Below, piece by piece: positions 40,206 to 61,747 of a stretch of DNA of 64,000 nucleotides; the first letter of the stretch is position 1; every line of letters starts with the position of its first letter. Source of the stretch: Rhizobium vallis (GTDB lineage: Bacteria; Pseudomonadota; Alphaproteobacteria; Rhizobiales; Rhizobiaceae); the NCBI RefSeq assembly GCF_003985155.1, contig NZ_ML133690.1, positions 124,001-188,000 of the forward strand, given 5' to 3'. A program made the translations under genes and the position numbers. The notes below the pieces were generated by a model. The model was not told the DNA's origin. It was given only the letters and a program-made list of their open reading frames with translations, and made no database searches.

Positions 40206-40856
40206 ATGAAGCAATATCTCGATCTCCTCGCCCACGTGATGGAAAAGGGCTCCGACCGGGGCGACCGCACCGGTACCGGCACCCGCTCGGTCTTCGGCCA
40301 CCAGATGCGCTTCGACCTCGAAGAGGGCTTTCCCGTCCTCACCACCAAGAAGCTGCATCTGCGTTCGATCATCCACGAGTTGCTGTGGTTCCTGAAGGGC
40401 GAGACGAACATCGGCTACCTCAAGGAGCACGGCGTTTCCATCTGGGACGAATGGGCCGACGAGAATGGTGATCTCGGGCCGGTCTACGGCGCCCAGTGGC
40501 GCTCGTGGCCGACGGCCGACGGCGGCCACATCGACCAGATCGCCAATCTCGTCAAAGGCATCGTCAACAATCCGAATTCGCGCCGCCACATCGTTTCGGC
40601 CTGGAATCCGGCTGAAGTGGACCAGATGGCGCTGCCGCCCTGCCACTGCCTGTTCCAGTTCTACGTTGCCGACGGCAGGCTCTCCTGCCAGCTCTACCAG
40701 CGCTCGGCCGATATTTTTCTCGGCGTGCCCTATTTTTCCACGGTAACACCTACCAATGTGAGTGAAATAGCCAACGATAACAAGGGGTTGCCTGTTTCGA
40801 ACTTGGTAACGTTATCAGATGTGAGTGGCAGATTGACCGCAAAAATAGCGGCTTGA
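40206..40856 (+). pseudogene. thyA: Native thymidylate synthase, truncated by island insertion
   Basis: Codons 1-175 are a normal rhizobial ThyA ([20 protein letters not shown], catalytic Cys146 in [19 protein letters not shown]). From about 40731 the sequence leaves the family: the expected FNIASYALL and the C-terminal dUMP/folate-binding part (about 89 residues) are missing and are replaced by 41 unrelated codons ending at 40856. The product should be inactive. Its promoter still reads into the island, toward the intact thyA-like gene 48 bp downstream. The 3' part of thyA is not in this window and is presumably beyond the other island end. Confidence 0.92.
40742..40827. repeat. Pair of direct repeats at the island's left end
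   Basis: GGTAAC-N8-ATGTGAGTG occurs at 40742-40764 and again at 40805-40827, 63 bp apart, within the first 100 bp of the island. A related inverted segment (CTCACT ... GTTACGG) follows at 40863-40887 and includes the small hairpin CTCAC-TC-GTGAG (40864-40875 region). These may be arm-type recombinase binding sites. The thyA side also shows TATTTTTC twice (40712-40719 and 40731-40738), straddling the junction. Confidence 0.6.
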
Positions 40857-40904
40857 CTTCCGCTCACTCGTGAGTCTTCGGTTACGGAAATTGCGGAGAC
40901 CCAA

Positions 40905-41822
40905 ATGAAGCGCCATCCCGAATACCAGTACCTCGAGATCATGTCCGACCTGCTTGACGGCGGTGACCGTCGAATGGACCGTACGGGTGAGGGCACTCTG
41001 TCTTTGTTCGGCAGGCAAATGCGCTTCGATCTCTCGGACGGCACGATTCCGATCTTCACGACGAAGAAGGTCTATTGGAAAACGTCGGCGAAGGAGATGC
41101 TGTGGTTCCTGACCGGGCAAACCAACATCGACGGCTTGTTGCGCGAGAATGTTCGTATTTGGACCGATTGGCCGCTTGCGAAATATCGCAAAGCGACGGG
41201 CGAGGAAATTTCCCAGGATGCATTCGAGGATCGAATACTGGCAAGCGAGGCATTCGCAGCAGAGTGGGGCGATCTAGGTCCAGTGTATGGGAAACAATGG
41301 CGTCGATGGAAGGATAATGACGGGAACGACCATGATCAGATTGCGACCGTCATATCGACGCTGAAGTCAAACCCGACCAGCCGACGGATACTTTTCCATG
41401 CATGGAATGTTGGTGAGCTGGATCGGATGGCTCTCCATCCCTGCCACATGACGTATCAATTCCACGTGTCGTGGCCAGACGGACCAGAAGGTCGTCCGCG
41501 CCTTTCGATGATGGTTAATCAACGTTCCTGTGACATCTTCCTTGGCGCGCCATTTAATATATGCCAGCAGGCGCTGCTTTTGGCTATGGTGGCCCAGCAG
41601 GTTGATATGGATCGCGGCGAGCTCATTTGGGTGGGCGGAGATACGCACCTGTATCTCAACCACCTCGACCAGGCCCGGCTGCAGCTCTCCCGAACTCCGA
41701 AACCGTTCCCTCGACTTGAACTGGCGCGCAAGCCCACGTCGATTGACGGTTACAGGATCGAGGATTTTGAAGTGCTGGACTACCAGTCACATGAGCGGAT
41801 TGAGGCTCCAGTAGCCGTCTAA
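40905..41822 (+). CDS. thyA: Island-borne thymidylate synthase
   Basis: 305 residues, complete: TTKKVYWKTSAKEMLWFLTG, catalytic Cys180 in LHPCHMTYQFHVSW, RSCDIFLGAPFNICQQALLL and the GGDTHLYLNHLDQ dUMP-binding block are all present. It carries the longer insert (about residues 88-120) found in one ThyA subgroup and is only distantly related to the truncated native copy, so it is not a duplicate. It converts dUMP to dTMP and should restore thymidine synthesis lost by the insertion. ggag precedes the ATG. It is 11 bp before the large recombinase-like gene, so it is probably co-transcribed with it. Confidence 0.95.
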   Translation: MKRHPEYQYLEIMSDLLDGGDRRMDRTGEGTLSLFGRQMRFDLSDGTIPIFTTKKVYWKTSAKEMLWFLTGQTNIDGLLRENVRIWTDWPLAKYRKATGEEISQDAFEDRILASEAFAAEWGDLGPVYGKQWRRWKDNDGNDHDQIATVISTLKSNPTSRRILFHAWNVGELDRMALHPCHMTYQFHVSWPDGPEGRPRLSMMVNQRSCDIFLGAPFNICQQALLLAMVAQQVDMDRGELIWVGGDTHLYLNHLDQARLQLSRTPKPFPRLELARKPTSIDGYRIEDFEVLDYQSHERIEAPVAV

Positions 41823-41833
41823 AGGCTTTCCTG

Positions 41834-44800
41834 ATGCAGATTGATCGAGGCAGTCACAGCGCCGAGCACTCCGCGCTGCAGGATATGCTTGCCCGCCATT
41901 TCGCGGAACGAGAGTTGGTGCCAATGTCCAATGCCGACCGCGTCGATCGCGGTTGGTACTTGGCTGCTGTTGGATTGCCATTCCACTACAAGCTCGCAGA
42001 TCATATCTTCGATCATTTCGACAAGCTTGCCGCCGATGAAATGATTATCGACGAAAGACTGATCGATAGGCTCGATAGCTATGTCAACCTCGCGATAGCG
42101 GCGAGAACGCTCGTCGTGCGCGTTGACAAGCTAAACCGACAACGCATTTACGACGCTCTCGACTTGGGCCGAGGAGCGGCACAGAACCATCCGTTGATAG
42201 TCTCCCAACTAGAGTTATGGGATTCGAGAATCGCCGAAATCGATTACGTGCCTGACTGGGCGGCAATACGGCTCCACGATAAGAACACCCTCTCGGCGTC
42301 TATACCGAAAAGGTCTGTATTTCGGGACCGAGTCGCTATCGAGGAAAACGACACCTCGATCGCCCGTTTAAAGGCGGTTCTCGCAAGCCACTTGGAGTGC
42401 CGCTCATTCATCGTTAACGGGAAAGGCATGCTCTCTAGTTGCGACTATGCTCGAATAATCGGGATTGACCGTACTCACATGACGTCGGCTCACCGGGTAA
42501 TATTGAGAGACTATCAGCGTCATGTTGGCCCACCCTTGTCGACAACTGAGCGAAAAATACCGCAAATTCGAGAATGGTTCAAATCCCACGTCAAGAGACG
42601 AACGCTCCAGATGCGGGGCCCAAAAATCGAACTGAAAGCCCTGCAGAAGGATTTCTCGATCTCTAAGCGGCAGCGGGACGGGTGTCAGGCTCTGCTGGAC
42701 TTGATTGACGAGTTCAATATTGAACTGGATCGGATCGGATATGTTGGGGACGAAGACCACAAGATTGAAATGGCGCTCATAAATGCTCTGCCTAAAGCGA
42801 GCCTGCTGAGAAATGGAATAGCGATTGATCGAGAAGCTCTGGCACGGACTATTAAGTGCAAGAAGTCGATCTTCATGCGCTCTCCGTTTAAGCAGCACAT
42901 AGACGCGGCGGATGAAGCGCATCTTGCGATGATTTCGAATCATCCCGCTTGGGTCTGTTTTCCTGGTCGAGGTATCAACTTCGAGCCGCTGATGAAAGCG
43001 GGTTGGTCAGAGGAGATAGTCCACAGGGTTTGTGCGGCTTTCAAAGACAATTTCGTCGGACAGCCTGCCCAGAAGCGAATGCGATTGGCGGTCGATGTCC
43101 GTCAAATCATGCGTAAATTGGCGGCGATAGGCTCCAGATGTGTTCGCATGGCATTCGCCGCGATCAATCGGAGAGAGGCGATATCAGACAATGATTGGCG
43201 CGCTGCCCTGGATGAAGTCGGGCATGGTATAAATCGCGCTAAAGCGGTGAACTACAACTCGATCGTGGCCTGCTTCGAGCGGGAACACATCTTTCCGGTG
43301 ACGAAACATCGGATCAAGCTTCCTCCTAAACGACGAGATCAGAATGGAAACCGAACCGTCGCCGAGGTTCTACCTCGACTGGGCAAGGTCGGCGAAGAAA
43401 CGCAAAGGCCTGAACTTTCATCGCTTGCTAAACAGTACGTTTCCTTTGCAAACTGGGTGCTTCTTCAGAAGGCTAATTGGGTTGACGGCGTTACCGAGTT
43501 TCGAGGCGACGACTTTCTTGTAGTGCTGCAGAGTGAGATCGAAAAATGGCAGGGCGAGCTTCCCAAGGACCCTGTCGAAGCAATCTCGCAAATCATCAGC
43601 AGGCGACTGTCCTTGATAGAGGACGCAGCGGAGGCCGTTTTCGTTTTTTGGAGAAATCATTACGTTGAGGGGCAGCAACTCCTCTCCGAAGGCGTCGATC
43701 CGACGGAATACGAAGGCGTTTTGTTCGGGGCAGATTCGACAAGCAGCGAATACCTAAAAGCACTCCGCACGTACTTTCCGACTGATCCCGACAAGAGGCG
43801 ACAAGGGTTGGCAAACCTAGTTCGTCTTATCCATGACCGCTACGGCGGACTAATTCCGTTGGCCGGAAGTTCCGAAGAGCGATTTTTCAGCGTTCGTTGC
43901 CAGGAATACAGCTCTCAATTGTTGGTGCAGGCGTATTTGATTCCGCATCGGGATGTTCACGCCGCTGTCATGACGATGTACTTGGCGGAGTCTGGATGCA
44001 ACGTTGCAGTTGCGCGCACGCTTTTCCATGACTGTATCGAAGAGACCGACATCCATGGCTTCCAAAAAATAACTGGGTCCAAGGCGCGAGCAAAAGGCAA
44101 ACCGATTGTCATCAATCTGCCCGAGGATTCAAGAGCGCTGACGGCCTTGTGTTGGTTGCGTGACAACAATGCGGTCGCGCGAAAGGCCGCACCAGACGGC
44201 ATTCGTGATCTGCTTTTCATAACGAGACTCAAAAGCGATATCGTCGAGATCAAGGCCCAATGGTTCCTAGACAACTTCAAGAAACTCTTGGGCGGCATCC
44301 CTGATTTGTCGATGCTCGGCATAACTCCCGTCATGCTCAGGCCGTCTGTTCTGCTCCGTTATGCGCTGGAGAATGACGGCGACCTGAGGGTCGGGCTCGC
44401 CTACGGGCAACATGATCCCAGTCAGACGGGCGTCTACCAGGTCCGGTTCCCAACGAAGTACATCTACGATCAGCTGTACTCTCAGTTTCAGGAACGGTTC
44501 CAAAAAATAATCGCCGGCATGGCGGCGCAACTGCGCGTCAAGAAACCGCAAGCTCTTGGCCCCAACGCCAAGCCGATCGGCATCGGCGGCGTATGCAACG
44601 CAGGTGGTTGCAGTGAATTGAAGTGCTGGAACAATTGCTCGAATCTCGTCGTGATCCCAGAAATAAACGCGCTTGCCGATTGGCAGATTTGGAACCGGTC
44701 ACTCAAAGAAGTCCGTGCTGATTGGGAACGTGACCGGATCGAGAGATGGGAAGCTATGTGGCTCCCCTTTCTCTGCTTCACCGACGTGCTAGCGGTAAAG

Positions 44801-44905
44801 ATGCGGCAAGGCTCCAACGCGCTCGAAAGACTTTGGGATGCAGCGACGGAGTTAGCAGAGAGCCTTATGTCCAGCGAAGGATTTGTCATGCCGAGGCCAT
44901 TCTGA
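41834..44905 (+). CDS. Large recombinase-like protein (1023 aa)
   Basis: 1023 residues. The C-terminal third looks like a diverged tyrosine recombinase: VMLRPSVLLRYA corresponds to the box II arginine region, and GQHDPSQTGVYQVRF, with Tyr near residue 866, to the H...T..Y end. The first catalytic Arg is uncertain (AVARTLFHDCIEE is a candidate). A putative zinc knuckle follows near residue 920 (CNAGGCSELKCWNNC). The first 700 residues are unrecognised. It ends in TGATG shared with the next gene, so the two are translationally coupled. Its place right after the replacement thyA suggests it belongs to the integration machinery. Confidence 0.72.
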   Translation: MQIDRGSHSAEHSALQDMLARHFAERELVPMSNADRVDRGWYLAAVGLPFHYKLADHIFDHFDKLAADEMIIDERLIDRLDSYVNLAIAARTLVVRVDKLNRQRIYDALDLGRGAAQNHPLIVSQLELWDSRIAEIDYVPDWAAIRLHDKNTLSASIPKRSVFRDRVAIEENDTSIARLKAVLASHLECRSFIVNGKGMLSSCDYARIIGIDRTHMTSAHRVILRDYQRHVGPPLSTTERKIPQIREWFKSHVKRRTLQMRGPKIELKALQKDFSISKRQRDGCQALLDLIDEFNIELDRIGYVGDEDHKIEMALINALPKASLLRNGIAIDREALARTIKCKKSIFMRSPFKQHIDAADEAHLAMISNHPAWVCFPGRGINFEPLMKAGWSEEIVHRVCAAFKDNFVGQPAQKRMRLAVDVRQIMRKLAAIGSRCVRMAFAAINRREAISDNDWRAALDEVGHGINRAKAVNYNSIVACFEREHIFPVTKHRIKLPPKRRDQNGNRTVAEVLPRLGKVGEETQRPELSSLAKQYVSFANWVLLQKANWVDGVTEFRGDDFLVVLQSEIEKWQGELPKDPVEAISQIISRRLSLIEDAAEAVFVFWRNHYVEGQQLLSEGVDPTEYEGVLFGADSTSSEYLKALRTYFPTDPDKRRQGLANLVRLIHDRYGGLIPLAGSSEERFFSVRCQEYSSQLLVQAYLIPHRDVHAAVMTMYLAESGCNVAVARTLFHDCIEETDIHGFQKITGSKARAKGKPIVINLPEDSRALTALCWLRDNNAVARKAAPDGIRDLLFITRLKSDIVEIKAQWFLDNFKKLLGGIPDLSMLGITPVMLRPSVLLRYALENDGDLRVGLAYGQHDPSQTGVYQVRFPTKYIYDQLYSQFQERFQKIIAGMAAQLRVKKPQALGPNAKPIGIGGVCNAGGCSELKCWNNCSNLVVIPEINALADWQIWNRSLKEVRADWERDRIERWEAMWLPFLCFTDVLAVKMRQGSNALERLWDAATELAESLMSSEGFVMPRPF

Positions 44906-46893
44906 TGTTGAAGCCGATCGTCGTGAAACAAATGACTTCGGAGCATCGCTCCACATTCCCGGAGGACGCCGAGCGGACGGCTCCGTGGTTGGGCGCTCCG
45001 TACTCCGCTATGAAGTGGCCAATCACAAGCGACAAACCAAACCCTGGCGAAACAGCAATTGAGATCGATTTTGATATTCCGGCCGCTGGCGGCAGACTGA
45101 CGCAATATCCCGCCCTCATCAGGGCGGCGAAGGAGTTTGCCTTCTGGCGGAGGCAGCTTGGTGCGAAAAAGCAGATGCATGACGCACAAACCCATGTCGG
45201 GTACATTCGGACCATGCTCAACTTCCTATGCGCTCTCACGCACCGCGGCTTCAAATCCCTAGATGGATTGCCCTCCAGCGTGTACGAAGCGATGCTCCGC
45301 GATTGGACTATGGGTACCGAGAGTCTTTTGCAGAGCTCATCAAAGGTCGAAAGCTTTCTCGATAAATTTGAGAGCCGACGAAGCCTTCCACATTTCCTGA
45401 AAACACGCATGAATGGCAACTGGTTCTTAGCGCGCGAGAACGTGATGACCGCATGCGGATTGCCGCCTTTGAGCATCGGGCGTGTTACCAAGGTAGTCAT
45501 GGACCAAGCCGCAGCGCGTCTGGGGTGTGCGAACATCGGTGAAGGCGCAGGGTCAACACTCACGGAACTTACAACTGAGTATCTCGGCACCCTGAAAACC
45601 CAGTTTCGCTGGATGTATAAGCATCGGACTCGCATGCGATGCGAGAATTTTGCGTTCGATCCAGACATTATAAAGGTGTCCACGAAAACAGACACAAAGC
45701 CGACGCCCGTCATTCCCCCAGAACTTGCGTTCAAGATGCTTGCTGGCTGCGCCCGTGAGTACGAGGACACCTTTCAACCGCTCCAAGCCATCCCGATGAA
45801 TATGCGTGACCTGTCTTGGGAGGCTGCTGCATACCGTTTTGTCGCGACAGTCCGCGCTATGACGCTTGCCGTTACGGCCCGCCGTGGGGAAGAACTCAAC
45901 CTAATGCGACGCGACTGCCTTCGCGGTAGCGACGAAGATGGTTGGTATGCGAATATTTTCATAGTGAAGAACGTGAAAGATTGGGTTTGGATACCTATCC
46001 CGCCATATGTGGCGCAGGCGATACAGAGCGTTATCGACCTCTCCCCGAACATGACAGACGATCAGCCCCTGTTTGCATTCTATCGTCCACGACTGAGGAG
46101 TGTTCGGCATCCAAAGGAATGGGGGGCCGTGCTCAATACCCTCGCAAAAGACCACGATGCCATTTCATACCTTGCGGCCAACGATAACCACGAGGACTGG
46201 AACTGGACAGAGCGGCAGTTCCGACGGTTCACAGCAGTTATGTACTTCAACGGCTACGGTGGCAGCGCTGCGGTTATTTCGCACATCTTGAGACACTTCA
46301 ACTTGGCCCAGACCTGGGGATACATGAAATACGATCCGAGCCTCGACAGAATGTGGAGAGACGTTCGAGCGAAGTTCCTTGAGCAAATTGCCGAGGAGGC
46401 GCTCGCTGGCACCCTTGAAGGTCCCATGGGCAGAAAATTGGTCCGCGACGCCAAGAAGCTTGTGCAGCACGCGACCAAGAACCTCGAGCAGACGCTCAAG
46501 GACCAGATGCGAGACCTTGAGGTCATCGAGCCCAAGAACATGGTGCACGCCATCCAAGAGGTGATGAGGCGCAAGGCTCTGGTGATCATCCCAAAAGGTT
46601 GGGTACTGTGCTCCTGCCCAGCTTCTGCAAGCGCCGCGCGACGTGCGGCTTGCCGGAAGCAGGCGGGAGTCGGCACGGTGCGCGAGATCGGGCCCGACTT
46701 CGGGAGGGCAGGTCCGCAGGTCTGCGCCGGATGTATCTTCGCCATCGAGAACGAGGCTACGCGGAAATTCGCTACGCAGGAAATGGAGAAGTTCAAGCTC
46801 TCCTGTGTCTCGCCATGCATGAAAGGCACAGTTCTCGGCAACATCCAGCAAACCCAGCTGGTCACCTTCATGAAGATACAGGAAGCTGCCTAG
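44905..46893 (+). CDS. Tyrosine recombinase with C-terminal zinc-binding region
   Basis: 662 residues from the ATG at 44905, which shares its A with the upstream stop and has gagg at 44893. Tyrosine-recombinase boxes are visible: TARRGEELNLMRRD (box I Arg near 326), RQFRRFTAVMYF (box II, His replaced) and ISHILRHFNLAQTWGYMKY with the nucleophile Tyr near 473-476. The C-terminus is Cys-rich (VLCSCPASASAARRAACRKQ ... PQVCAGCIFA ... KLSCVSPC), suggesting a zinc site, as in large Tn554 TnpB-like integrases. It is second in the thyA2-recombinase operon. Confidence 0.85.
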   Translation: MLKPIVVKQMTSEHRSTFPEDAERTAPWLGAPYSAMKWPITSDKPNPGETAIEIDFDIPAAGGRLTQYPALIRAAKEFAFWRRQLGAKKQMHDAQTHVGYIRTMLNFLCALTHRGFKSLDGLPSSVYEAMLRDWTMGTESLLQSSSKVESFLDKFESRRSLPHFLKTRMNGNWFLARENVMTACGLPPLSIGRVTKVVMDQAAARLGCANIGEGAGSTLTELTTEYLGTLKTQFRWMYKHRTRMRCENFAFDPDIIKVSTKTDTKPTPVIPPELAFKMLAGCAREYEDTFQPLQAIPMNMRDLSWEAAAYRFVATVRAMTLAVTARRGEELNLMRRDCLRGSDEDGWYANIFIVKNVKDWVWIPIPPYVAQAIQSVIDLSPNMTDDQPLFAFYRPRLRSVRHPKEWGAVLNTLAKDHDAISYLAANDNHEDWNWTERQFRRFTAVMYFNGYGGSAAVISHILRHFNLAQTWGYMKYDPSLDRMWRDVRAKFLEQIAEEALAGTLEGPMGRKLVRDAKKLVQHATKNLEQTLKDQMRDLEVIEPKNMVHAIQEVMRRKALVIIPKGWVLCSCPASASAARRAACRKQAGVGTVREIGPDFGRAGPQVCAGCIFAIENEATRKFATQEMEKFKLSCVSPCMKGTVLGNIQQTQLVTFMKIQEAA

Positions 46894-46895
46894 TC

Positions 46896-47339
46896 TCAGG
46901 CGGGTGGAGACTCTTTCAGGACGTAACCATCGCCTTCGTGGGCGAATTCGTCTTTCGCTCTTGTCATCACTCTAGTGATGGTCTTTGCCGGCTGCTTGCC
47001 GCCTACGACAATACCCGAAGCTCGCAATGCATCGAGTATCTCGGTGCGCCGCACCGGTCGTCCATGTCTGGTTGCCAAGTCTCGGGCTACCGCACGGATC
47101 GCCTTCGAAACGGAACTATCGTCAAGGTTGAGTTCCTCAAGGAGTGGTGAGGGCTCGGTGTCAAAACGATGCGCATCCAGGAGCCGGGTCAGCTTCCCAG
47201 TCTTGAACTGCTTGATCTTGTCGAGCTGTTCCACCTGACGATCGATCGCCGCTATCTCGGACTTGAGCCGGACGATGGCTTCGCTAAGGAGGTCATCGAC
47301 ACCTTGTGTCGTCGTCGTCTCTATGTTCGCTCTTGGCAA
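46896..47339 (-). CDS. Coiled-coil plus winged-helix (HARE-like) protein
   Basis: 147 residues. Residues 17-50 form a predicted coiled coil (LLSEAIVRLKSEIAAIDRQV). Residues 78-141 look like a winged helix of the HARE-HTH kind: GRPVRRTEILDALRASGIVV, then GGKQPAKTITRVMTRAKDEF and GDGYVL. HARE domains occur in restriction, chromatin and RNA-polymerase proteins and are thought to bind modified or melted DNA. It is convergent with the first recombinase operon (2 bp between stops) and divergent from the second, so it could regulate excision. The assignment is by eye. Confidence 0.7.
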   Translation of the reverse strand: MPRANIETTTTQGVDDLLSEAIVRLKSEIAAIDRQVEQLDKIKQFKTGKLTRLLDAHRFDTEPSPLLEELNLDDSSVSKAIRAVARDLATRHGRPVRRTEILDALRASGIVVGGKQPAKTITRVMTRAKDEFAHEGDGYVLKESPPA

Positions 47340-47598
47340 CTGTCATCCGTCCGTGCTAGTAATTCTCCCCGTGGTGGACTCGATGTCCTCCAAGGTGGGG
47401 AGCTACCTCGCCGGAGCGGTGTCGTCGCCCACCATCTGGGTTGTCGAAGATAAGTAACATTTCATTGGCTCGTTTTCCAGCGGGAACGTGCGGGGTTCCG
47501 TTCGCCTTCCGTCATGCTGGGCCATCGAGGCGGTGAGGGGGAATAGCGGCCCGCCAACGGCGTGGATAGGCATGAATTTGATTGCAAGAGGAGTTGGT
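47340..47598. other. Divergent intergenic region between the winged-helix gene and the second recombinase operon
   Basis: This 259-bp stretch must hold both promoters. I see no clear consensus boxes or strong palindrome in it. A short open frame in phase with the downstream gene exists from 47488 but lacks a ribosome binding site. Confidence 0.4.
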
Positions 47599-48117
47599 AT
47601 GCAGTCGAACGTCGATAAATTGCCTTGTGATAAAGAGCGGATTGCAGCGAAGAAGGCATACTATGCGGGGCTGTGTAACGGAACCATTCGGCTGGCTCGG
47701 TGGGACGAAGTTCCGCGCACTCTCAACACCATTCGTGACATGCATCGCCCGGAACTGGGCCTTTTCAGGATCGGTCACCGAAATCACTGGACCACGACGA
47801 GTTCGCCATTCAAGGACGATGTAGCTGCCATCCAGGAACATGTCTCCAAGATCAACGAGAAGTACCCGCTCGTTAAAAAGCAACCGAAGCCTGAACGTAC
47901 TTCGCAGGTCGTCAAGGCAGCGAAAGGCCGCATAGAATCGGCAGTCAGCCAGGAAATTGTTTTTGCCGAGAACTTCCATACGGACGGGGAGGCTTCGAAA
48001 TTGGACCGTAACGAGCTTGCGCAGACGAAGGTGCGCAATGGTGAGCTGGCTGAGACAATCCGGAAGCACGAGGCCGAGATCGCACGCCTCCGTGTCCAGC
48101 TTTTCAGGGGCGTCTGA
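47599..48117 (+). CDS. Small coiled-coil protein coupled to a recombinase
   Basis: 172 residues from the ATG at 47599, preceded by gaggag. There is no recognised domain in the first part (CDKERIAAKKAYYAGLCNGT, then WDEVPRTLNTIRDMHRPELG). The last 25 residues are a good coiled coil (RNGELAETIRKHEAEIARLR). The stop shares its last base with the next ATG (TGATG), so it is made together with the 580-residue recombinase. Size, position and coiled coil recall the small accessory proteins of multi-recombinase elements such as Tn554 TnpC; homology is not shown. Confidence 0.72.
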   Translation: MQSNVDKLPCDKERIAAKKAYYAGLCNGTIRLARWDEVPRTLNTIRDMHRPELGLFRIGHRNHWTTTSSPFKDDVAAIQEHVSKINEKYPLVKKQPKPERTSQVVKAAKGRIESAVSQEIVFAENFHTDGEASKLDRNELAQTKVRNGELAETIRKHEAEIARLRVQLFRGV

Positions 48118-49859
48118 TGCGTTACGCGGAGCTCCCAAACATATGGCAGGAGGACCTGTCAGGCCTTAGTGGCGCGGCGCTAGGAAGAGTCTACGTCGAG
48201 CGAGCCACGGAAAGACTGGTTTCGCGAGCAATTGATCCATCACTGTATGAGGACTGGGGGAAAATCGATGTCGACCGCGCATGCCAGTTGATCGGCTGCA
48301 AGCGGTCGGCGCTCTACCAGAACACAGGAATTCGAACGATCATCAGTGATCTGCAGGAGCAAGACGCAAAGCTCAAGCCTGCGGATGGTTCTGAACACGA
48401 ACAGGCCGCCGAGCCGAAAAGCAACGTTATTCAGTTCCCCATGGAACGCGCCAGGCCACCGTCCCGATATATTGTCGGCAAGATCGTGGTGGTGAAGGTC
48501 AAGTTGGCGCTGTCGAAGGCAGTTTCGCGTGACTATTCGATCCCAACGCTGTTCTGGGAAGATGGTATCGATCGCGAAGTCTCTCACTACATAAGGGCGC
48601 TAGCGCTGGAGGAGCGCCCTCTCAGCACGCTACTCGAGTATCTGAAAATCCTAAGGGAATTCAGACGCTTTTGCCGTCAGAACGGTATTCCCTGGCTGCT
48701 TGTCAATGACGATACCCTGCGTGCGTATCGGGCTTTAAAGCTGAACAAGGGCATCAAGACACGCCGCATCAACACGATCACCGGCGTCATCTTTCAGTTC
48801 TATGCGTGGGCAGAGCGCGTCGGGATGCTCCGCAATCACGTACAGCTCTACGAGCCAGGCGATTACCCGCCGGAACTGTGGGAGCATCCGTTCGCCATTA
48901 CTTCTGACGAGTTCACGAAGAAAGACGGCGCGAAAATCCGGGTGAGCCGCCTCAGAATACCGGACACCTCTCCCAAGGCGAACCGCCCCACAGTTACCGA
49001 TGCTAAGCTCAAACTCGTCAAATACGCAGAGGAAGGCTCGAGGCACGAGGAGCGCAACTCACTTGCGTACTCGTGGATTGCCGTCACAGGCGCTCGAAGC
49101 TTCGAACTGCTTCAGGTGATCGTAGGCAAGCTCCCCACGCGCGAGCAATTGGATCGCATTTTTGCCGGCGCGCTCGATTGGACAATCGAGGTCAAGAGGA
49201 AGGGTGGGCGTGACGGCAAGCTTGTTCCTACTGCCGATCTCCTACGGCGGACGCTCAATTTCGCCGAAAACGAGCGGGCCGCCATCGTCAAGAGGTGTGA
49301 GAGCCTCGGCCTCCCAGTTGAGGACGGCTTGTTCCTGACTGACAAGGGTACAACCCTTGCCGTCAGCTCGTTTCAAGGTCTCGCGCGGCTCGCCTTCCAA
49401 CGAGCGGGCGTAGCCGGAAGCGCCCATCGCATCCGAGCGATTCCTGCCCGTAAGGCTGTGGAGGTGGCGCTCGATGTCGCCGATGTCGGCGACGTCGAAC
49501 TTGGGCCTGATACCATCTGGAAACATGCCATCCTGATGCGGGCCGCAGACATCCTCGATCATAGGTCGACGCGAACGCTCGAGCATTACCTCAACGACCT
49601 GATCAACAGCCGCGTCCAGAAGTCCGCCGCGTCCAAGCTTCACATGGTCGAGTCCGCGATCTCCGAGAAGGAGCTGACGCTGGCTGCGCTGGAGCGACGG
49701 ATCGAAGCGCGTACCAAGGAACTCGACATCAACCGCTTGATTGCGGATTTCCGACGGACGGGGACGCTCGCTGGTGCCACGGCGGAGGAGGTTCGCACGC
49801 TGGAGGAATTCCAAGACGAGTTCGATACCGCCATGAGGGAGTTCAAGATCGCTGCATAG
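48117..49859 (+). CDS. Tyrosine recombinase (580 aa)
   Basis: 580 residues. The N-terminal part (1-130) is unrecognised. A SAM-like core-binding region at about 150-250 (SHYIRALALEERPLSTLLEY, KTRRINTITGVIFQFYAWAE) precedes the catalytic domain: VTGARSFELLQVIV (box I Arg near 324), AHRIRAIPARKAVE (HxxR near 435) and LDHRSTRTLEHYLND with the nucleophile Tyr near 490. The C-terminal helix (about 515-545) is coiled-coil-like. It is the most canonical recombinase of the island and is coupled to the small coiled-coil gene. Confidence 0.88.
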   Translation: MRYAELPNIWQEDLSGLSGAALGRVYVERATERLVSRAIDPSLYEDWGKIDVDRACQLIGCKRSALYQNTGIRTIISDLQEQDAKLKPADGSEHEQAAEPKSNVIQFPMERARPPSRYIVGKIVVVKVKLALSKAVSRDYSIPTLFWEDGIDREVSHYIRALALEERPLSTLLEYLKILREFRRFCRQNGIPWLLVNDDTLRAYRALKLNKGIKTRRINTITGVIFQFYAWAERVGMLRNHVQLYEPGDYPPELWEHPFAITSDEFTKKDGAKIRVSRLRIPDTSPKANRPTVTDAKLKLVKYAEEGSRHEERNSLAYSWIAVTGARSFELLQVIVGKLPTREQLDRIFAGALDWTIEVKRKGGRDGKLVPTADLLRRTLNFAENERAAIVKRCESLGLPVEDGLFLTDKGTTLAVSSFQGLARLAFQRAGVAGSAHRIRAIPARKAVEVALDVADVGDVELGPDTIWKHAILMRAADILDHRSTRTLEHYLNDLINSRVQKSAASKLHMVESAISEKELTLAALERRIEARTKELDINRLIADFRRTGTLAGATAEEVRTLEEFQDEFDTAMREFKIAA

Positions 49860-49890
49860 GGAGGGCGCAGGTCGCCTGTCATGGATGAAG

Positions 49891-49957
49891 TCTTCAATTT
49901 GTCCTCCATTGAGGTCTTTAATTTGTCCCCCATCAAGATGTTCATTTTGTCCCCCAT
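49891..49957. repeat. Three 19-bp direct repeats with exact 24-bp period
   Basis: Copies start at 49891, 49915 and 49939 and end at 49909, 49933 and 49957; the consensus is TCTTYAATTTGTCCCCCAT. The five-base spacers differ. Two mismatches or more separate the first and third copies. This is too short and too regular for a CRISPR array and looks like a tandem protein-binding site. It lies between the second recombinase operon and the next cargo operon. Confidence 0.75.
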
Positions 49958-49990
49958 TCGTCGTTCCGGGATTTGGGGTCAGGAATTGAT

Positions 49991-50017
49991 GGCTTCGTAA
50001 GTTGACTAATTAAAGAC
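49991..50017. promoter_or_regulatory. Shared upstream element, copy 1
   Basis: GGCTTCGTAAGTTGACTAAT continuing to AATTAAAGAC at 50017. A closely similar element in the same orientation is at 62711-62736, also upstream of a cargo operon start. Its reverse complement begins GTCTTTAATT, the same core as the repeats at 49891-49957. It is 74 bp before the ATG at 50092. Confidence 0.6.
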
Positions 50018-50091
50018 ACCGTCGCGAGAGCAGGTTCAGGTTGGCGACTTCCAAAAACAAAGACGTCGCGTCTTCAAACCGAGAGGGAAAA

Positions 50092-50619
50092 ATGGAAGAC
50101 CCCCGATATTTCTACAAGCATCGCTCCAAGGAGTTGGACATCCGGAAGTTGAATGCAGCTATCGACAATTGGGTGCGTGAGGAGCGGAAGCGCGGATCGA
50201 CGAATGGGCAGATGAGGCATCGCATCATCCGCGAGATAGTGTGCGCGACGGGTGTATCGCGGGCACGCGCGGAGCACGCCTATTGGCTGTTCCTGAAGAT
50301 AAGGAAAACTCAGGCGCTGGCGAAGATGAGCGGCTCGGATGCTCGATATATTATGAAAGACGACCGCTTGGTTGAGGTTCTGCTGATGCTGCGTAAAGCA
50401 GAGTCAAGGTCCTCTGCAGTCGTTCCGGAGGGTCCCTCCAAGCTACGCAAGCCTCGCGGCGCGATCTGCATCGCTCCAATTCAGTCTGCCAATGATCACG
50501 GACGGAACCAGAATCGATACCAAGGCTGCCTCTTCGACCTTAACGCCCACCAGCCTTGGTGGGAACGGTGGCATAGGGAGTACGCAAAAATTCATGATCC
50601 AGATGCCGGCGGCAGATGA
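50092..50619 (+). CDS. Hypothetical protein (island cargo)
   Basis: 175 residues from the ATG at 50092, chosen because gagaggg precedes it; a TTG at 50041 would add 17 residues. The first half is basic and helical (DIRKLNAAIDNWVREERKRG, MRHRIIREIVCATGVSRARA), possibly a helix-turn-helix; the end is Trp-rich (HQPWWERWHREYAK). No family recognised. It overlaps the upstream-most possible start of the next gene and probably forms an operon with it. A promoter element shared with another cargo operon lies 74 bp upstream. Confidence 0.65.
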   Translation: MEDPRYFYKHRSKELDIRKLNAAIDNWVREERKRGSTNGQMRHRIIREIVCATGVSRARAEHAYWLFLKIRKTQALAKMSGSDARYIMKDDRLVEVLLMLRKAESRSSAVVPEGPSKLRKPRGAICIAPIQSANDHGRNQNRYQGCLFDLNAHQPWWERWHREYAKIHDPDAGGR

Positions 50620-50681
50620 TCGTCGATCAGTCGGAACGCCCGGCGCAGAACAAAAGACGCGCTCATATTGGAAGGGATCGC

Positions 50682-51509
50682 ATGCGTATCTATCTGCAAG
50701 GCTCCGGAACCGCACTCAACTTGGCTAAGAACGTCAAGAACAGATATAAGGGACGGATCAAGCTGAACCACGCCATGCATATGGTGGCGCACGCCTTTGG
50801 CTATGACCATTATCAGCAATTGAAGAGCATGGACGGACTGGTCGACCCGAGTTCAACGGACTTGGAGGCTTCACCCGAAGAGCGATCTGCACGTTTTGCT
50901 CAATACATCCAAGCGATCACGGAATACGGCTTCACGACAGAGGAAGCAGAGGAAATGATCTCGACCGTAGGGATCGGTGGATTCTGGGGGGCTGCCGTTA
51001 GTGAGAACGAAACGCTGAAGCGCACCACGATTGCCGAGCGAGCACTTCGCCCGTCGCCCAACAAGATGCAGTTTGTCAGCCCCCTAGATTTGGAGCGGTT
51101 TCGTGTAAACCTCCAAGGCGGCGTGGAAACGCTGGGAATTGAGCTGCCTATACGGACTCGACACCTGATGGCGAAGTTGTTCGGTTACGAGAGCTTTCCT
51201 GAAATGTACGACTGTGCGGGCCACGGTGTTCCGTCGGCTCCGGACAGTCACGTATCACCGGAAGCGCTCGACGCGAGGGTTCAGGAATATCTGGCGGTCT
51301 TGCTCGCGGCTGGCTTCTCCGAAGACCAGGGTAGAGAATTGCTGCAGATTGTGTCGTACGGTGGCTGGTGGGGCCTGGAGGAAGGCGAATGGACTCGCGA
51401 GGGTGTCCGGGCCCGGCAGGAAGGGTACGTGGATCGAATCGAGGGATCGCGATCATGGCGTCGCCTTCGCGCACTTCGACCTGGAGATTTCGGTTACCGT
51501 CGTCGTTGA
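50682..51509 (+). CDS. Internally duplicated protein of unknown function
   Basis: 275 residues from the ATG at 50682 (ggaaggg just before); an ATG at 50616 overlapping the previous stop would add 22 residues. The protein is two copies of one module. Residues 4-103 run from YLQGSGTALNLAKN through HMVAHAFGYDHYQQL to GFTTEEAEEMISTVGIGGFW. Residues 142-231 run from VNLQGGVETLGI through HLMAKLFGYESFPEM to GFSEDQGRELLQIVSYGGWW. The first part resembles the short helical tail found in some glyoxalase-superfamily proteins. Function unknown. Confidence 0.7.
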   Translation: MRIYLQGSGTALNLAKNVKNRYKGRIKLNHAMHMVAHAFGYDHYQQLKSMDGLVDPSSTDLEASPEERSARFAQYIQAITEYGFTTEEAEEMISTVGIGGFWGAAVSENETLKRTTIAERALRPSPNKMQFVSPLDLERFRVNLQGGVETLGIELPIRTRHLMAKLFGYESFPEMYDCAGHGVPSAPDSHVSPEALDARVQEYLAVLLAAGFSEDQGRELLQIVSYGGWWGLEEGEWTREGVRARQEGYVDRIEGSRSWRRLRALRPGDFGYRRR

Positions 51510-51568
51510 TGTGCGCCAAATTTAGCGAATGAAAACCGCAGTAGGTCTCAAATGCTCGCACGGGCCTT

Positions 51569-52135
51569 TCATGTGGCCGGCCCCAATTCGACCCCGTCAT
51601 AGATGTCGCTCAAGGCGAGCCTCGTTTCGATCGCAGGCAGCTCGATGACATCGGCGAGCCCGCGATATGCTGAAGCGTCCCAGCGTTCACTTCTTCGATC
51701 ATGAACCAATACGCAGGCGGTTTCGGTATCTACCAGCAGAACCGACGTAATCTTCGGTGTCGACTTGTATTCGAACAGGCGTCGATGCGGGTCAAAACCT
51801 CTCGTCAAAGGCGACAGAACGTCAACGACGACCCGAGGCTCCATAGCTAGCATTGCTTCGTCATTGCGCGCACCGCAATCGACAACGAGGTCAGGGAAAC
51901 GGATCGTGCAAGCGGTTGTCAAAATCCCCGTGCCGATCGAAGTCGGGCGGTAACTTTTTGCGCGCGACCGGGTGTGTAGCAAGGCCAACGTGTTGGCGGC
52001 AATGTATCGATGACGCTGGTTTGTCCGGGGCTTCTCGACCACTCTGCCATCGACAAGTTCCCACACGCCTTCGCGACCTCTAATGAACCGAAAGAAATCG
52101 TGCTGAGACATGAGGGTTTCGGAGTGCAATGCCAT
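51569..52135 (-). CDS. Uma2 family (DUF820) putative endonuclease
   Basis: 188 residues from the ATG at 52135; another ATG at 52111 is possible. The PD-(D/E)XK-like core is visible as FPDLVVDCG (Asp near residue 102), PRVVVDVLSPLTRGFDPHRR and LFEYKSTPKITSVLLVD, the usual Uma2 order. The family is abundant in cyanobacteria and mobile DNA; nuclease activity is predicted rather than shown for most members. The codon for the Glu of the ExK motif is Asp or absent in VVDV, so activity is uncertain. Confidence 0.78.
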   Translation of the reverse strand: MALHSETLMSQHDFFRFIRGREGVWELVDGRVVEKPRTNQRHRYIAANTLALLHTRSRAKSYRPTSIGTGILTTACTIRFPDLVVDCGARNDEAMLAMEPRVVVDVLSPLTRGFDPHRRLFEYKSTPKITSVLLVDTETACVLVHDRRSERWDASAYRGLADVIELPAIETRLALSDIYDGVELGPAT

Positions 52136-52265
52136 CCTGAAGGCTAGCGTGCGGAGCCGACAAAGCAAAGGGCGATTTCCGTCGGATAGGAGCATCAGAA
52201 GCCAATCAACGCAGCATCCGCTGGAATATGAAGAAGTTGTCCTTGGTGTTGCCGCATCGCTGCAA

Positions 52266-52727
52266 TCAAGACTTCGCGCTAAAATCGTCTGTGCGGGCGC
52301 TGGGCGGGAACTTTGCCCGCAGTCGTTTCATGTCGACATTGCGGCAGTGTCCGCACTTGCAGAAACCAGACAAGACATACCACGCGGGCACATTTCCGAG
52401 CTCCGTGTCATCCAGGCGATGGGCATCCGGCGGGAACCTGAGGAATTCGAGAGGCGAGAGCAGTTTCTCGATAGCTTTGAAGGCTGACAGTGGGATTTCC
52501 ATCCGGCAACGCAAATGCCCGCTGACGTCGACACGCCCGCAGCCCATCGTTCGAGCCACGGTGACGGGCAAGCTCTGAACACTGACGTCGCCAATTCGTT
52601 CGAGCATACTGTCGACGCGGTACTCTTTTCGGATTGAGCAGCCGCCACATAGGACGGTGACGCTGTGGCCCTTGTAGAAGGACAGCCATCGAATGCCCGA
52701 GCGCCAATGTAGATGACTATCCACCAT
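52266..52727 (-). CDS. Putative zinc-binding protein, unknown function
   Basis: 153 residues. Cys pairs look like a zinc ribbon: VTVLCGGCSIRKEY near residue 25, TMGCGRVDVSGHLRCRM near 60-75, and CKCGHCRNVDMKRL near residue 123. The order of the two CxxC-like sites is unusual. No family recognised. It lies on the same strand as the Uma2-type gene (130 bp upstream), possibly co-transcribed. Confidence 0.6.
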   Translation of the reverse strand: MVDSHLHWRSGIRWLSFYKGHSVTVLCGGCSIRKEYRVDSMLERIGDVSVQSLPVTVARTMGCGRVDVSGHLRCRMEIPLSAFKAIEKLLSPLEFLRFPPDAHRLDDTELGNVPAWYVLSGFCKCGHCRNVDMKRLRAKFPPSARTDDFSAKS

Positions 52728-52738
52728 TATCGGAGAAT

Positions 52739-52825
52739 ATGGAACATAACAAGAACAAGATCAACGCGATTGTCGGTTGGTTTACCTGCCACTACGTCCG
52801 TCCGCACCAACCACAACGCATGTAA
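52739..52825 (+). CDS. Possible 28-residue peptide
   Basis: ATG at 52739 with cggag four bases before, ending in TAA at 52825: MEHNKNKINAIVGWFTCHYV, then eight more residues. It is too short to judge by composition. It could equally be a chance frame in the promoter region of the zinc-ribbon gene. Confidence 0.2.
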   Translation: MEHNKNKINAIVGWFTCHYVRPHQPQRM

Positions 52826-52908
52826 GTGTGGGAAACCGCTGGATTTTTGTGGCCCGCGTTATCAAGCGCGCTAAGACAGGTTTGTTTCCCTAATCGAGAC
52901 CGATCACG

Positions 52909-54213
52909 ATGAATTTCGAGACCTTCGAGCTTGTTTCCTATCCGTTTGTCGAGACGAGAAAGGAATTTCCCAATCTTGTGCTTGGGAGCGCCGATCGCTC
53001 CGAGGTACCGCAAACAGGATATCGCGGTTATTTTGATTTCCTTCAATCCAGGATCAAGGAAGCCATCCGTGACGATAACCTTCCATCGTTGCTGTCAAAC
53101 TACATGACGGCGATCAGCCAAGCCTCGACGAACATCGGCCCCGGTTTGATGTCCCCGCTCACCGTGAGCCATGTCAACGAATTCGCGGCTCGGTGGAGTT
53201 CACTGCTGGAAGGGGCAGCTCCGGTACAGCACCTTGAGGCGATTCTTGCTGCGGCGGCGGCATTCCTTGTCGAAACGAGTAAGGCGAACCAGGGCGAATT
53301 CAATCTGGGCGGCACCCGATACGGCGCGGCGATCATCGCCGAAATGGGGAGCTACAACGCGTGGCTTGTTTCCGAGGACATCAATGGAGGAACTCGAAGG
53401 CAGCAGATGACCGCGCTCGATCAGTTCGCAGCACAGACAAAGGAATCTTTCGATAACGCCGCCGAAATCATAAGAACAGGCCAACAAGTCATCGGCGAGC
53501 TTAGAACGGAGAATGCCACGGCACTGAAAGAGGTAGCCGAGGCCCGATTGGAACTCGAGCGCGCCCAGTCATTCTTCAAATCCGCCCTTAACTCGTCGAA
53601 CCAGTCTCTCAAGACCACAACAGAGGGCTTCCAGGCGTTAAGTGCGGAAGTCTCGACCCGAAAAGGCGACGTCGATGCCTTCAAAGAGGCGCTCCGGGAA
53701 GAGGCCAAGATCGAGGCCGCCAAACAGCTCTGGGACGAGCGAGCGACCGCGGCATCACGGGGATTTTGGGCGTCCGCCATGCTGTTGTTCTTGACGCTGG
53801 TCGTCGTTCCCGTCGTCGGTTTCGTAAAACTAGAGAGCGTCATCGAGGTTCTTCGCCACATCGCCGAAACGACCTTGCTCGGGATCGATCAGTCAAAGGC
53901 CGAAGGCGGCATCCTTCTCGGACTGGCGATCAATCGCATCGTCATCGTGACCGTGCCGCTGGCTCTATATTTCTGGATGGTCCGAATATTGGTCCGCTTC
54001 AATCTGCGCTCCCAGATGCTGATGGACGATGCTCGGCAGCGCCACACTATGATGAACACCTATTTCCATCTGATCGAGAAGCAGTCGGCCGTGAAAGAGG
54101 ATCGAGCACTCATCCTCAACGCGTTGTTCCGCCCGACGCCGGGGCAGCAGAACGACTCCGTCGATCCGCCCAATTTCACCGAGCTAATGGATAAGGCGAT
54201 CGGCCGGCAGTGA
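52909..54213 (+). CDS. DUF6161-like membrane protein with coiled coil
   Basis: 434 residues. The N-terminal domain (1-165) is soluble and unrecognised. A long coiled coil at about 165-275 (ALKEVAEARLELERAQSFFK) leads to two membrane segments (about 287-307 and 341-360). The C-terminus (SQMLMDDARQRHTMMNTYFH, then ERALILNALFRPT-like KEDRALILNALFRPT) matches the conserved end of DUF6161-type proteins as I know them. The topology suggests a membrane-anchored sensor or scaffold. It stands alone in the island. Confidence 0.65.
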   Translation: MNFETFELVSYPFVETRKEFPNLVLGSADRSEVPQTGYRGYFDFLQSRIKEAIRDDNLPSLLSNYMTAISQASTNIGPGLMSPLTVSHVNEFAARWSSLLEGAAPVQHLEAILAAAAAFLVETSKANQGEFNLGGTRYGAAIIAEMGSYNAWLVSEDINGGTRRQQMTALDQFAAQTKESFDNAAEIIRTGQQVIGELRTENATALKEVAEARLELERAQSFFKSALNSSNQSLKTTTEGFQALSAEVSTRKGDVDAFKEALREEAKIEAAKQLWDERATAASRGFWASAMLLFLTLVVVPVVGFVKLESVIEVLRHIAETTLLGIDQSKAEGGILLGLAINRIVIVTVPLALYFWMVRILVRFNLRSQMLMDDARQRHTMMNTYFHLIEKQSAVKEDRALILNALFRPTPGQQNDSVDPPNFTELMDKAIGRQ

Positions 54214-54235
54214 AGGGTAGAGGGGCAGGTAAAAC

Positions 54236-54507
54236 CTAATGGCGGGTATGCAGCAGGGGCTCATCGTCGTCGAAGTTGCCGTTGCTCGCCGCGTCATAGC
54301 TGTTGACGCTTCTGCCTCCGCCCCTCGTGCCGAACGCGGTCAGCTGGACCATGACAGCACGCGCGCGGTCGATTGCCTCGTCCTGAGTGAGCTCCTGGCC
54401 GCGCCCACGTGAACGGTGACGGCATCGCCATCATCGCCATCATCGCCAATGAAGTCGACCTTCCAACCATCGGGCTGCCGTTCAGTTCTGGTATCGGCCA
54501 GGTGCAT
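54236..54507 (-). pseudogene. Small gene broken by a one-base deletion
   Basis: Starting at 54507 the frame reads MHLADTRTERQPDGWKVDFI and an acidic stretch to VTVHVGA. A shift at about 54398-54402 (a G missing on the coding strand) is needed to continue as GQELTQDEAIDRARAVMVQL, then SYDAASNGNFDDDEPLLHTR, to a TAG at 54236. The two halves together form a sensible protein of about 90 residues. It could be a true frameshift or a sequencing error. It lies just downstream of the Ku genes, 1 bp after the Ku stop. Confidence 0.65.
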
Positions 54508-54508
54508 G

Positions 54509-55321
54509 TCACGACGCCTTCTTGCCGTTAAGTTCGGACGCCAACGATTTCTTGAGGGCATCCATGATGTTGACCACGTTGGAAGGAGCGCGCGCGTCGT
54601 CCTTCTTTCCCTTGGCCGTCTTTTTAGGCTTCAGCAGCTTCTTCTTCTCGGCGATCAGCTTGAGAAGACTGGCTTGGATTGGGTCGCTTGCCATATCCGG
54701 AGACCAATGTGACGTCTTCTTTTTGATCAGCTGCTGCACTAGCGGGACCAGGTCGGGATCGGCCTCGTCGTGGATGTCTTCGAAATAGCTCTCCTCAGGA
54801 CGTACTTCGTCTCCGAACCTCAGCGACCAGAGCACGATGCCTTCATCACGCGGCTCGAGGATGACGGCGCGCTCGCGGCGACCGATCACCAGCTTGGAGA
54901 CCCCGACGACCTCGTCAGACCTCATGGCGTCCCGAATGACCGCGAAGGCTTCATTACCGACCGGATCGTCTGGCATGAGGTAGTGCGGCTTCTCGAGATA
55001 GACCCAGTCTATGCTGTCGGCCGGCACAAACTTTTCGATATCGATCGTTTTGACGGTGTCCAGAGCAACACGGTCAAGCTCGTCATCGGTTAGGATAATG
55101 TAGTCGTTCTCGCCGCGAGCGTAGCCCTTTGCCTCGTTTTGGTCCTTCACGGGCTTCCCGGTGACGGAATCGATGTATTGCGAGACTACTCGGTTGCCCG
55201 TCTGTCGATTGATGGTGTGAAATCGCACCTTCTCGCTCTCGCTTGTCGCGGGCGTCATCGCGACAGGGCAGGTAACCAACGAGAGCTTGAGGTAGCCTTT
55301 CCAATAATAGCGCGGTGCCAT
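54509..55321 (-). CDS. Ku protein (bacterial NHEJ), copy 1
   Basis: 270 residues, standard bacterial Ku length. RYYWKGYLKLSLVTCPVAMT at the start, VRFHTINRQTGNRVVSQYID, and KPHYLMPDDPVGNEAFAVIR are Ku-core motifs. The Lys-rich tail (KKKLLKPKKTAKGKKDD) is the minimal C-terminus that stimulates LigD and DNA binding. Ku rings hold double-strand ends for non-homologous end joining. It is 11 bp after a second Ku gene, preceded by ggagga, so the two are co-expressed. No ligD is in the window. Confidence 0.95.
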   Translation of the reverse strand: MAPRYYWKGYLKLSLVTCPVAMTPATSESEKVRFHTINRQTGNRVVSQYIDSVTGKPVKDQNEAKGYARGENDYIILTDDELDRVALDTVKTIDIEKFVPADSIDWVYLEKPHYLMPDDPVGNEAFAVIRDAMRSDEVVGVSKLVIGRRERAVILEPRDEGIVLWSLRFGDEVRPEESYFEDIHDEADPDLVPLVQQLIKKKTSHWSPDMASDPIQASLLKLIAEKKKLLKPKKTAKGKKDDARAPSNVVNIMDALKKSLASELNGKKAS

Positions 55322-55332
55322 GGTCTCCTCCG

Positions 55333-56241: not shown

Positions 56242-56288
56242 GACGATACTCCGAATCACTTGGTCGCGATTCAAAGACGTACGGAGGT

Positions 56289-56313
56289 GATTCGTTCCGA
56301 CTCGAAACGAATC
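56289..56313. promoter_or_regulatory. Inverted repeat upstream of the Ku operon
   Basis: GATTCGTT (56289-56296) and AACGAATC (56306-56313) face each other over a 9-base spacer, 48-72 bp before the Ku start. It could be an operator or the end of an upstream transcript. The surrounding 206-bp gap has no gene. Confidence 0.45.
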
Positions 56314-56447
56314 ATTTTCAATCAGTTATCGGCTCTTTTTCTGACAGAGATTCATCGGGAAGCGTGTGCTAGCCCGAGCGCCATCCTGGAGCGAAAGCCA
56401 AGACATCGATCCACGGAGAACGAAATGCCGCGATCGACACCGCGGCA

Positions 56448-56987
56448 TCATGCCTGGCTTGGCTCCTGAGGTGGCGATCCATTCCGTCTACCGATGGAGT
56501 TAGTCCGGTCCATTATCGTTGCAAGCGAGACTGGCCTAAGTGCCTGTGCATCGACACCAACATCGTACTGTCGGGACAGGGGCTTGAGCCGAGCGTGTGA
56601 GTGACCATGGAGATTTACGGACTTTTTGCCCATCTTGTTCCATGTTCGAAACGGGTAATGGCAAAGAATGAGCAGATGACCATCTACGACCAACTCGGCA
56701 TAGTGCTGCACGGTTGCCCAGCCGGACGCCTGCGTTGTCGTCACCGGGTCATTGTTGCCGACGATCAGGTGTTTCCGGCCATTCAATTCCGAAAGCAGCC
56801 GATCGCAGTCGTCGCCACGCGGAAGGATGAAATCGCCGAGATGCCAGACGTCATCGTCATGTCCAACTACTGAATTCCAGTACTCTATGAGCGTGGCGTC
56901 GTGCGTTGACACGTCCGCGAATGGTCGTTTGTCGATCCGTAGAACCCTGGGATCGCCGAAGTGTGTATCGCTCGTGAAATAGATCAT
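56448..56987 (-). CDS. Small calcineurin-like metallophosphoesterase
   Basis: 179 residues. The five metal-binding motifs are in order: DTHFGD (7-12), VWHLGDF (GD near 51), GNND (near 77), CHYPF (near 109) and HGHSH (near 126). The size matches single-domain phosphoesterases that act on cyclic nucleotides, DNA ends or phosphoproteins. Its position next to Ku genes suggests DNA-end processing, but that is only guilt by association. Confidence 0.85.
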   Translation of the reverse strand: MIYFTSDTHFGDPRVLRIDKRPFADVSTHDATLIEYWNSVVGHDDDVWHLGDFILPRGDDCDRLLSELNGRKHLIVGNNDPVTTTQASGWATVQHYAELVVDGHLLILCHYPFRTWNKMGKKSVNLHGHSHARLKPLSRQYDVGVDAQALRPVSLATIMDRTNSIGRRNGSPPQEPSQA

Positions 56988-61746: not shown

Positions 61747-61747
61747 C

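Follow-up and report, generated by a model that had tools for sequence, protein, structure and literature searches.

A genomic island that splits thyA in Rhizobium vallis and carries a diverged copy of the broken gene

The window analysed here, that is the whole stretch of 64,000 nucleotides (G000:C5:124001-188000, G000 being the genome of Rhizobium vallis itself), holds the 5' part of the host's thymidylate synthase gene, thyA, and directly behind it the left portion of a genomic island that opens with a second, complete thyA and a group of recombinase-like genes. In window numbering, the features are these:

40206..40727, + strand: 5' part of the native thyA, codons 1-174, matching positions 1-178 of the PF00303 profile; the 3' counterpart is at G000:C5:289239-289508
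40722..40739, no strand: attL, made up of the host arm GGCGTG, the 6-bp spacer CCCTAT and the element arm TTTTCC
40728..64000, no strand: window portion of the island, which ends at window-numbering 165238 (G000:C5:289238) and totals about 124.5 kb
40905..41822, + strand: cargo thyA, 305 aa, the sole complete thymidylate synthase gene found in the genome (PF00303, 351.5 bits)
41834..44905, + strand: o1, a long protein of 1023 aa with a tyrosine-recombinase-like part (predicted model, pLDDT 70.9)
44905..46893, + strand: o2, a tyrosine recombinase (about 660 aa if read from the ATG at 44905; predicted model, pLDDT 55.1)
46896..47339, - strand: small ORF, 30-33% identical to its relatives in the islands of G022 and G089
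47488..48117, + strand: o3, 209 aa, start possibly further in, with relatives in five of five islands of the genus
48117..49859, + strand: o4, a tyrosine recombinase of 580 aa (PF02899, 21.4 bits, just under the 22.3-bit cut-off)

The interrupted native frame continues into island DNA, where its stop ends at 40856, and GC content is 0.574 in the island against 0.622 in the left flank. A preliminary description of this DNA had rightly recognised both the interruption and the complete, distantly related thyA inside the island (the cargo ThyA is 44% identical to the native part); its positions need amendment, as the last native codon is 174, ending at 40727, rather than 175, and the cargo gene begins 177 bp and not 174 bp into the island. 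The same description expected the missing 3' part of thyA at the island's far end, and there it lies, in register and about 124.5 kb on (G000:C5:289233-289508), with the contig, strand and orientation of the 5' part and followed by folA and then hflK, in the gene order seen behind uninterrupted thyA in relatives. Joined by a script, the native halves encode an open 264-aa ThyA in which nothing is inserted or missing; it is identical at 247 of 264 residues to the ThyA of G007 and to that of G099. Across the whole genome the PF00303 profile has three matches, covering profile positions 1-178 in the native 5' part, 175-266 in the native 3' part and 2-266 in the cargo gene, and the ThyX family (PF02511) has none; consequently, no complete thymidylate synthase gene other than the cargo thyA was found in this genome. 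The core observation, that an island splits thyA and supplies a cargo thyA, is confirmed at the level of sequence. On the other side of thyA, a tmRNA gene (39728-40068, - strand) is divergent from it and leaves only short room for a thyA promoter.

Given that both native halves lie in open frames in this genome, they might be imagined to complement each other into a working enzyme, with the cargo gene dispensable. We consider this extremely improbable: 38 genomes of the genus are without any complete native copy, and the cut adjoins what we take to be the conserved substrate-binding Asn, by position as in E. coli ThyA, which counts against complementation. For the tmk island of Pseudomonas putida, to which we return below, the corresponding idea was rejected experimentally (PMC10653934).

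In intact relatives the site (attB) reads GGCGTG-CCNTTC-AACATC with small variation. The expectation of uninterrupted thyA genes among relatives was borne out, an exact pattern finding the intact target in 144 of 200 of them; one such empty site, in G015, has flanking genes nearly identical to those of the island carrier G022. Nine left and seven right island ends could be compared, one of each from the shrunken island of G138, and G098 gives one more of each; all of these ends interrupt thyA at one shared place. The left ends consist of GGCGTG, six bases and TTT[T/C]C[C/A] in nine of nine, and the right ends of a GGAAAA-type arm, CCNTTC and then AACATC or AATATC in seven of seven. The spacer at attR is of the host kind, CCNTTC, in all seven, and the spacer at attL is another 6 bp in six of the nine and CCNTTC in the remaining three. 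In a circular form, the arms of the element would be inverted repeats flanking 6 bp. The 3' half is not missing from the genome and empty sites exist, which argues for precise integration rather than decay, and decay without integration is ruled out by halves that rejoin exactly and by ends that match across nine islands. A survey of the order with the attR pattern, which misses altered scars such as that of G024, detected 3 of 397 genomes (G000, G138 and G476), with six genomes of the genus in the draw.

The genes behind the cargo thyA appear to form a four-gene set of three tyrosine-recombinase-like proteins (o1, o2 and o4, the assignment being weak for o1) and the small o3, the structural models being of modest confidence. 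The best five PDB matches of the o1 model are XerH (three chains), XerD and the Tn1549 integrase, a weak fold match with a best E value of 0.0076 and none at 0.001 or better, and the best matches of the o2 model are the Tn1549 integrase, Cre and XerH. Conserved columns of the o2 alignment are R, K, Q..R and Y; those invariant in the o4 alignment are R, K, H..R, H and Y. The GInts (ginABCD; PMC5385486) likewise have a set of four genes, three for tyrosine recombinases and one for a small protein, along with high target specificity and variable cargo, and in five of five islands of the genus o1, o2 and o4 are recombinase-like, with a weak fold for o1, and o3 is small. The sets differ from GInts in gene order and sizes, o1 being about 1000 aa, and GInt insertion probably does not fully inactivate the target, whereas thyA is broken; no replacement gene is described for GInts in the available part of that paper (PMC5385486). 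Profiles of o2 and o4 also find gammaproteobacterial sets of similar layout, for example L163 (o2 6.7e-19, o4 5.7e-12), and the o2 profile matches 4 of 398 genomes of the phylum, own included; for the class of G463 the figure is 8 of 369, seven of them weak. Unrelated GInt sets can share one target, ssb (PMC5385486). In G463 itself (L041 5564-11552), a distant recombinase set lies directly upstream of the genome's only ssb match.

The ends of the island resemble those of SEs, the strand-biased circularizing integrative elements, which have inverted arms around a 6-bp spacer, as found at the thyA island ends, and keep the host's 6 bp at one end and the element's own 6 bp at the other (PMC10214605). 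SEs are also without a conjugation system (PMC10214605), to which the thyA island may be likened: VirB4-type genes (PF03135) match on contigs C13 and C16, and there is no match on C5, the island's contig, so that the type IV secretion expected of an ICE was not found there. According to the same source, SEs are reported mainly from Gammaproteobacteria, and no ginC-ginD blocks turned up in Alphaproteobacteria (PMC10214605); the thyA islands place GInt/SE-like machinery in the latter class. If the element copies itself out as SEs are thought to, there may be no precise excision at all.

The arrangement is not confined to one genome. In a sample of 200 genomes, 120 from the genus (own included) and 80 from the order, relatives of o1 occur in five, own included and all within the genus, and in each of the five a complete cargo thyA stands behind the native 5' half, with the native 3' half in another place. 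The native halves are separated by 95 kb in G085 and by 83 kb in G089, and in G005 and G022 they fall on separate contigs of draft assemblies. The recombinase set stands beside the left end in four of the five; in G089 it is at the right end, by the native 3' half, with the cargo thyA still at the left end. Scanning the contig collection with the o1 alignment gave six loci, two of them duplicating G022 and G005. Tardiphaga robiniae, where o4 is spread over two frames, Rhizobiales AFS022961 and Brucella oryzae have the native 5' half, a cargo thyA and the set, and Arenibaculum (L036) has a distant recombinase set with no thyA match alongside. The Brucella oryzae island (L035) shows many frame breaks in the cargo thyA and in o1-o4, from sequencing errors or decay. 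Among the five islands of the genus, long stretches of o1, o2 and o4 align at about 22-43% identity; in the four islands compared, cargo ThyA proteins are 65-80% identical to one another, native parts 86-93%, and cargo versus native 42-45%. In all, a cargo thyA is present in eight of eight thyA islands that have the four-gene set, which supports the earlier suggestion that this gene is both a permit for insertion and a penalty on loss. On this distribution, breaking thyA and carrying a spare is a recurrent strategy.

Whether the pairing could instead be an accidental double, a chance hit on thyA by an element whose own thyA is a passenger serving that element, for example in its DNA synthesis, deserves consideration because thyA-like genes are common in phages and plasmids (3719 phage and 923 plasmid records). 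These matches, however, are all below 60% identity, the same site is paired with the same gene in all eight islands, and the cargo gene is promoter-proximal even where the recombinase genes are at the opposite end; we judge the accident very unlikely. A phage or plasmid source of the cargo thyA is likewise unsupported, the best listed matches being 50.7% and 58.4% identical. On the Rhizobium leguminosarum plasmid pRlX5 (L169 8854-11146), a cargo-like thyA (58%) lies near genes that by eye are dut-like and recA-like; as an island of the present group this locus was rejected, with no o1, o2 or o4 match.

The cargo gene itself is preceded by a Shine-Dalgarno-like GGAG. Its dN/dS is 0.017-0.079 in seven of eight pairs, the eighth having saturated dS, and the cargo genes are under strong purifying selection. 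The preliminary description had the native promoter reading straight into the replacement gene. Gene order and the retained leader fit that proposal, and the proposed use of the native promoter rests on these two, as a sigma-70 scan of 39600-42000 around thyA gave 0 promoter-like matches (shuffles 1.2). The Gly-Val codons of the target are present in 22 of 22 native genes and in 0 of 44 cargo genes, and mean arm mismatches to the target are 3.75 in the 44 cargo genes versus 0.82 in the 22 native ones. Since the ranges (2-6 and 0-2) meet at 2, self-immunity of the cargo gene against re-insertion is only suggestive and weakly supported.

Beyond the islands, the genus holds many genomes in which the cargo type stands by itself. 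The 56 genomes without the exact target pattern comprised the five island carriers, 49 that were searched with PF00303, and G144 and G195 (67% and 76% complete), which were left out. On 41 genomes of the genus the PF00303 search returned 38 with a complete cargo-type synthase and no complete native one, and three with a native type at a variant site. The 120 genus genomes thus divide into 77 with native thyA (74 by pattern, three by family score), five with set-bearing islands and 38 with the cargo type only, in keeping with the earlier claim that losing the cargo gene would be costly. G168 (53% identical, different gene order) was excluded from the cargo counts, G175 (83% complete) gave no thymidylate synthase match with PF00303, and weak additional family matches in G090 and G112 were rejected as native remnants, being 26-27% identical to native ThyA.

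In 37 of the 38 loci the cargo-type gene is directly behind sspB, in the native slot. The exception is G003 (82% complete, 1320 contigs), in which the gene lies away from sspB, between transketolase-like and aldolase-like genes (L174 4548-5483), and is 84% identical to the G005 cargo; the cargo-type gene can evidently also move alone. folA follows 0.7-3.1 kb past the cargo gene in 30 of the 37 native-slot loci, other genes do so within the fetched stretch in six, and the G098 contig ends. In 30 of 36 loci tested the native leader can be aligned as far as a point from -11 to +5 relative to the native ATG, and the alignment breaks off 23-72 bp ahead of the cargo ATG; it looks as though a deletion had removed the native coding part from between the leader and the spare gene. 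Direct relics, either native codons or island scars, survive in two of the 37 native-slot loci. In G024 the cargo gene is preceded by 27 native codons and followed by a fragment of o1 (E 6.8e-17), after which come the 3' part of the native gene and folA. In G098, native codons 1-14 are joined to pre-target codons; an attL scar (GGCGTA-CTACCC-TTTTCC) stands between these and the cargo gene, behind which the contig ends, with no o1, o2 or o4 match in the 1.2 kb behind the gene. A second contig of G098 carries an attR scar (GGAAAA-CCCTTC) and a native 3' part with a broken frame, and then folA. The genome G138 belongs to a different family; its island has shrunk, and both parts of the native gene, a cargo thyA and a piece of o1 lie in a span of about 5.2 kb. 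Over 37 loci (36 of the genus plus G138), profiles of o1, o2 and o4 matched in G024 and G138 only, and a search for attL scars upstream of the cargo gene succeeded in two (G098 and G138), the pattern occurring five times in the 875 kb that these loci cover.

The direction of these changes can be approached through trees. A ThyA tree was built from 67 proteins, without Brucella oryzae because its gene reads in pieces; in it the 22 native proteins form one side of a branch with support 100, and island and cargo-only genes are interleaved (5 changes). The tree built on the neighbouring proteins AsmA and SspB (62 rows, in which AFS022961 should be disregarded because of a poor AsmA reading, branch 5.1) requires 8 changes for native versus cargo or island and 6 for native plus island versus cargo-only; it puts the island carrier G022 nearly identical to the native G015, G024 with the native G036, and G098 in a clade with five native genomes. 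A different history could be drawn from such data, in which the cargo type is an old Rhizobium version of the gene, the islands took it from cargo-only species, and the series of states runs backwards. The interleaving of cargo-only and island proteins in a ThyA tree without an inferred root, together with the cargo-type gene of G003 outside the native slot, would suit it. Against it, G024 and G098 keep native thyA pieces and island scars next to the cargo gene, and outside the genus Tardiphaga and G138 have cargo types that branch below the Rhizobium ones; the relics, and for G024 the grouping with native-type G036 in the flank tree, indicate that the native gene came first in G024 and G098 at least. 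As a general account, the reversed history is unlikely. For the large cargo-only clade, part of the genus may nonetheless have had a cargo-type thyA from early on, the native type coming back later; gain and loss are indistinguishable there because the tree roots are not fixed, and the clade may represent a single old event. The direction from native to cargo is certain only where relics remain.

Taken together, the features legible in the DNA (an interrupted thyA with a cargo gene, island ends of a shared kind, relics, and displacement in place) lead to an explanation that we hold with considerable confidence: site-specific islands with the four-gene set break thyA and carry a diverged spare, which later displaces the native gene, probably more than once. 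The element, presumably mobile, would be inserted by the four-gene set at a single place in the conserved G-V-P-F-N-I codons of thyA. Insertion destroys an essential-like gene, and this would be why the element carries a complete, diverged thyA, placed first, behind the host promoter and the truncated 5' half, where the host promoter would read it and its enzyme would restore dTMP synthesis. Being without the Gly-Val codons of the target, the cargo gene may itself be a poor target for re-insertion. Most of the island would be dispensable and its thyA not, so that selection for thymidylate synthase would keep the spare while the rest decays; because the island can be lost and its thyA cannot, the cargo gene would repeatedly have displaced the native one.

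Mobile elements usually keep off essential genes or use gene ends, and islands that restore gene ends are already known. A whole-gene spare is different from a restored gene end, and the thyA islands represent a repeated alternative, namely to break the gene and supply a spare. We recognised no description of thyA as the target of a spare-carrying island in the open-licence PMC literature, which is not proof of absence. The closest precedent is a 65-kb genomic island in tmk of P. putida KT2440, with the dNMPK gene PP_1964 as cargo, which its authors term a first case (PMC10653934). Like the thyA island, it splits an essential thymidine-nucleotide gene, carries a gene for that step, is accompanied by genes for two tyrosine recombinases plus a protein without assigned activity, and has counterparts in strains with the cargo gene alone in the native slot (PMC10653934). 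The two differ in that the tmk cargo is a phage-T4-like dNMPK and the last gene of its island, whereas the thyA cargo is a diverged copy of the same family and comes first behind the truncated host gene; essentiality, moreover, was proven experimentally for tmk (PMC10653934), while the thyA case is known from sequence alone, with the broken gene and its same-step cargo matched by gene family and not by activity. A search for tmk-type islands with the DNMK family (PF21448) matched 5 of 274 genomes, and the loci inspected (L157-L159 and part of L160) looked phage-like.

thyA is thus the second enzyme for a strategy earlier described for tmk. That a diverged, target-proof spare of a broken essential gene is a general strategy of tyrosine-recombinase islands, driving in-place replacement of genus-wide housekeeping genes by mobile-element versions, seems to us somewhat better than an even proposition. 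If true, the strategy frees islands from gene ends and tRNA genes, the islands become hard to lose, and the housekeeping genes of whole genera are swapped in place for mobile-element versions. The states found here form a series, from the empty site through the full and the shrunken island to the spare alone, which makes displacement of a core gene by horizontal transfer testable and also lets one test how an island becomes indispensable without a toxin.

Elsewhere on the island, a 1300-aa P-loop ATPase (window 57321-61223, - strand) resembles the anti-phage protein Tmn (PADLOC 4.8e-85; Pfam YobI-ATPase), and a SIR2-domain protein at window-numbering 120898-124665 (L007 from 16898 into L008) resembles the defence protein Dsr1 (3.1e-55) over its first 1034 residues; a 434-aa protein with DUF6161 (window 52909-54213, + strand) matches AbiZ weakly (1.2e-08). 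A pair of neighbouring Ku genes lies at window 54509-56274 (- strand). At window 62848-64588 three small proteins that look alike by eye stand in tandem, and a protein resembling them is found near the recombinase set in the island of G022.
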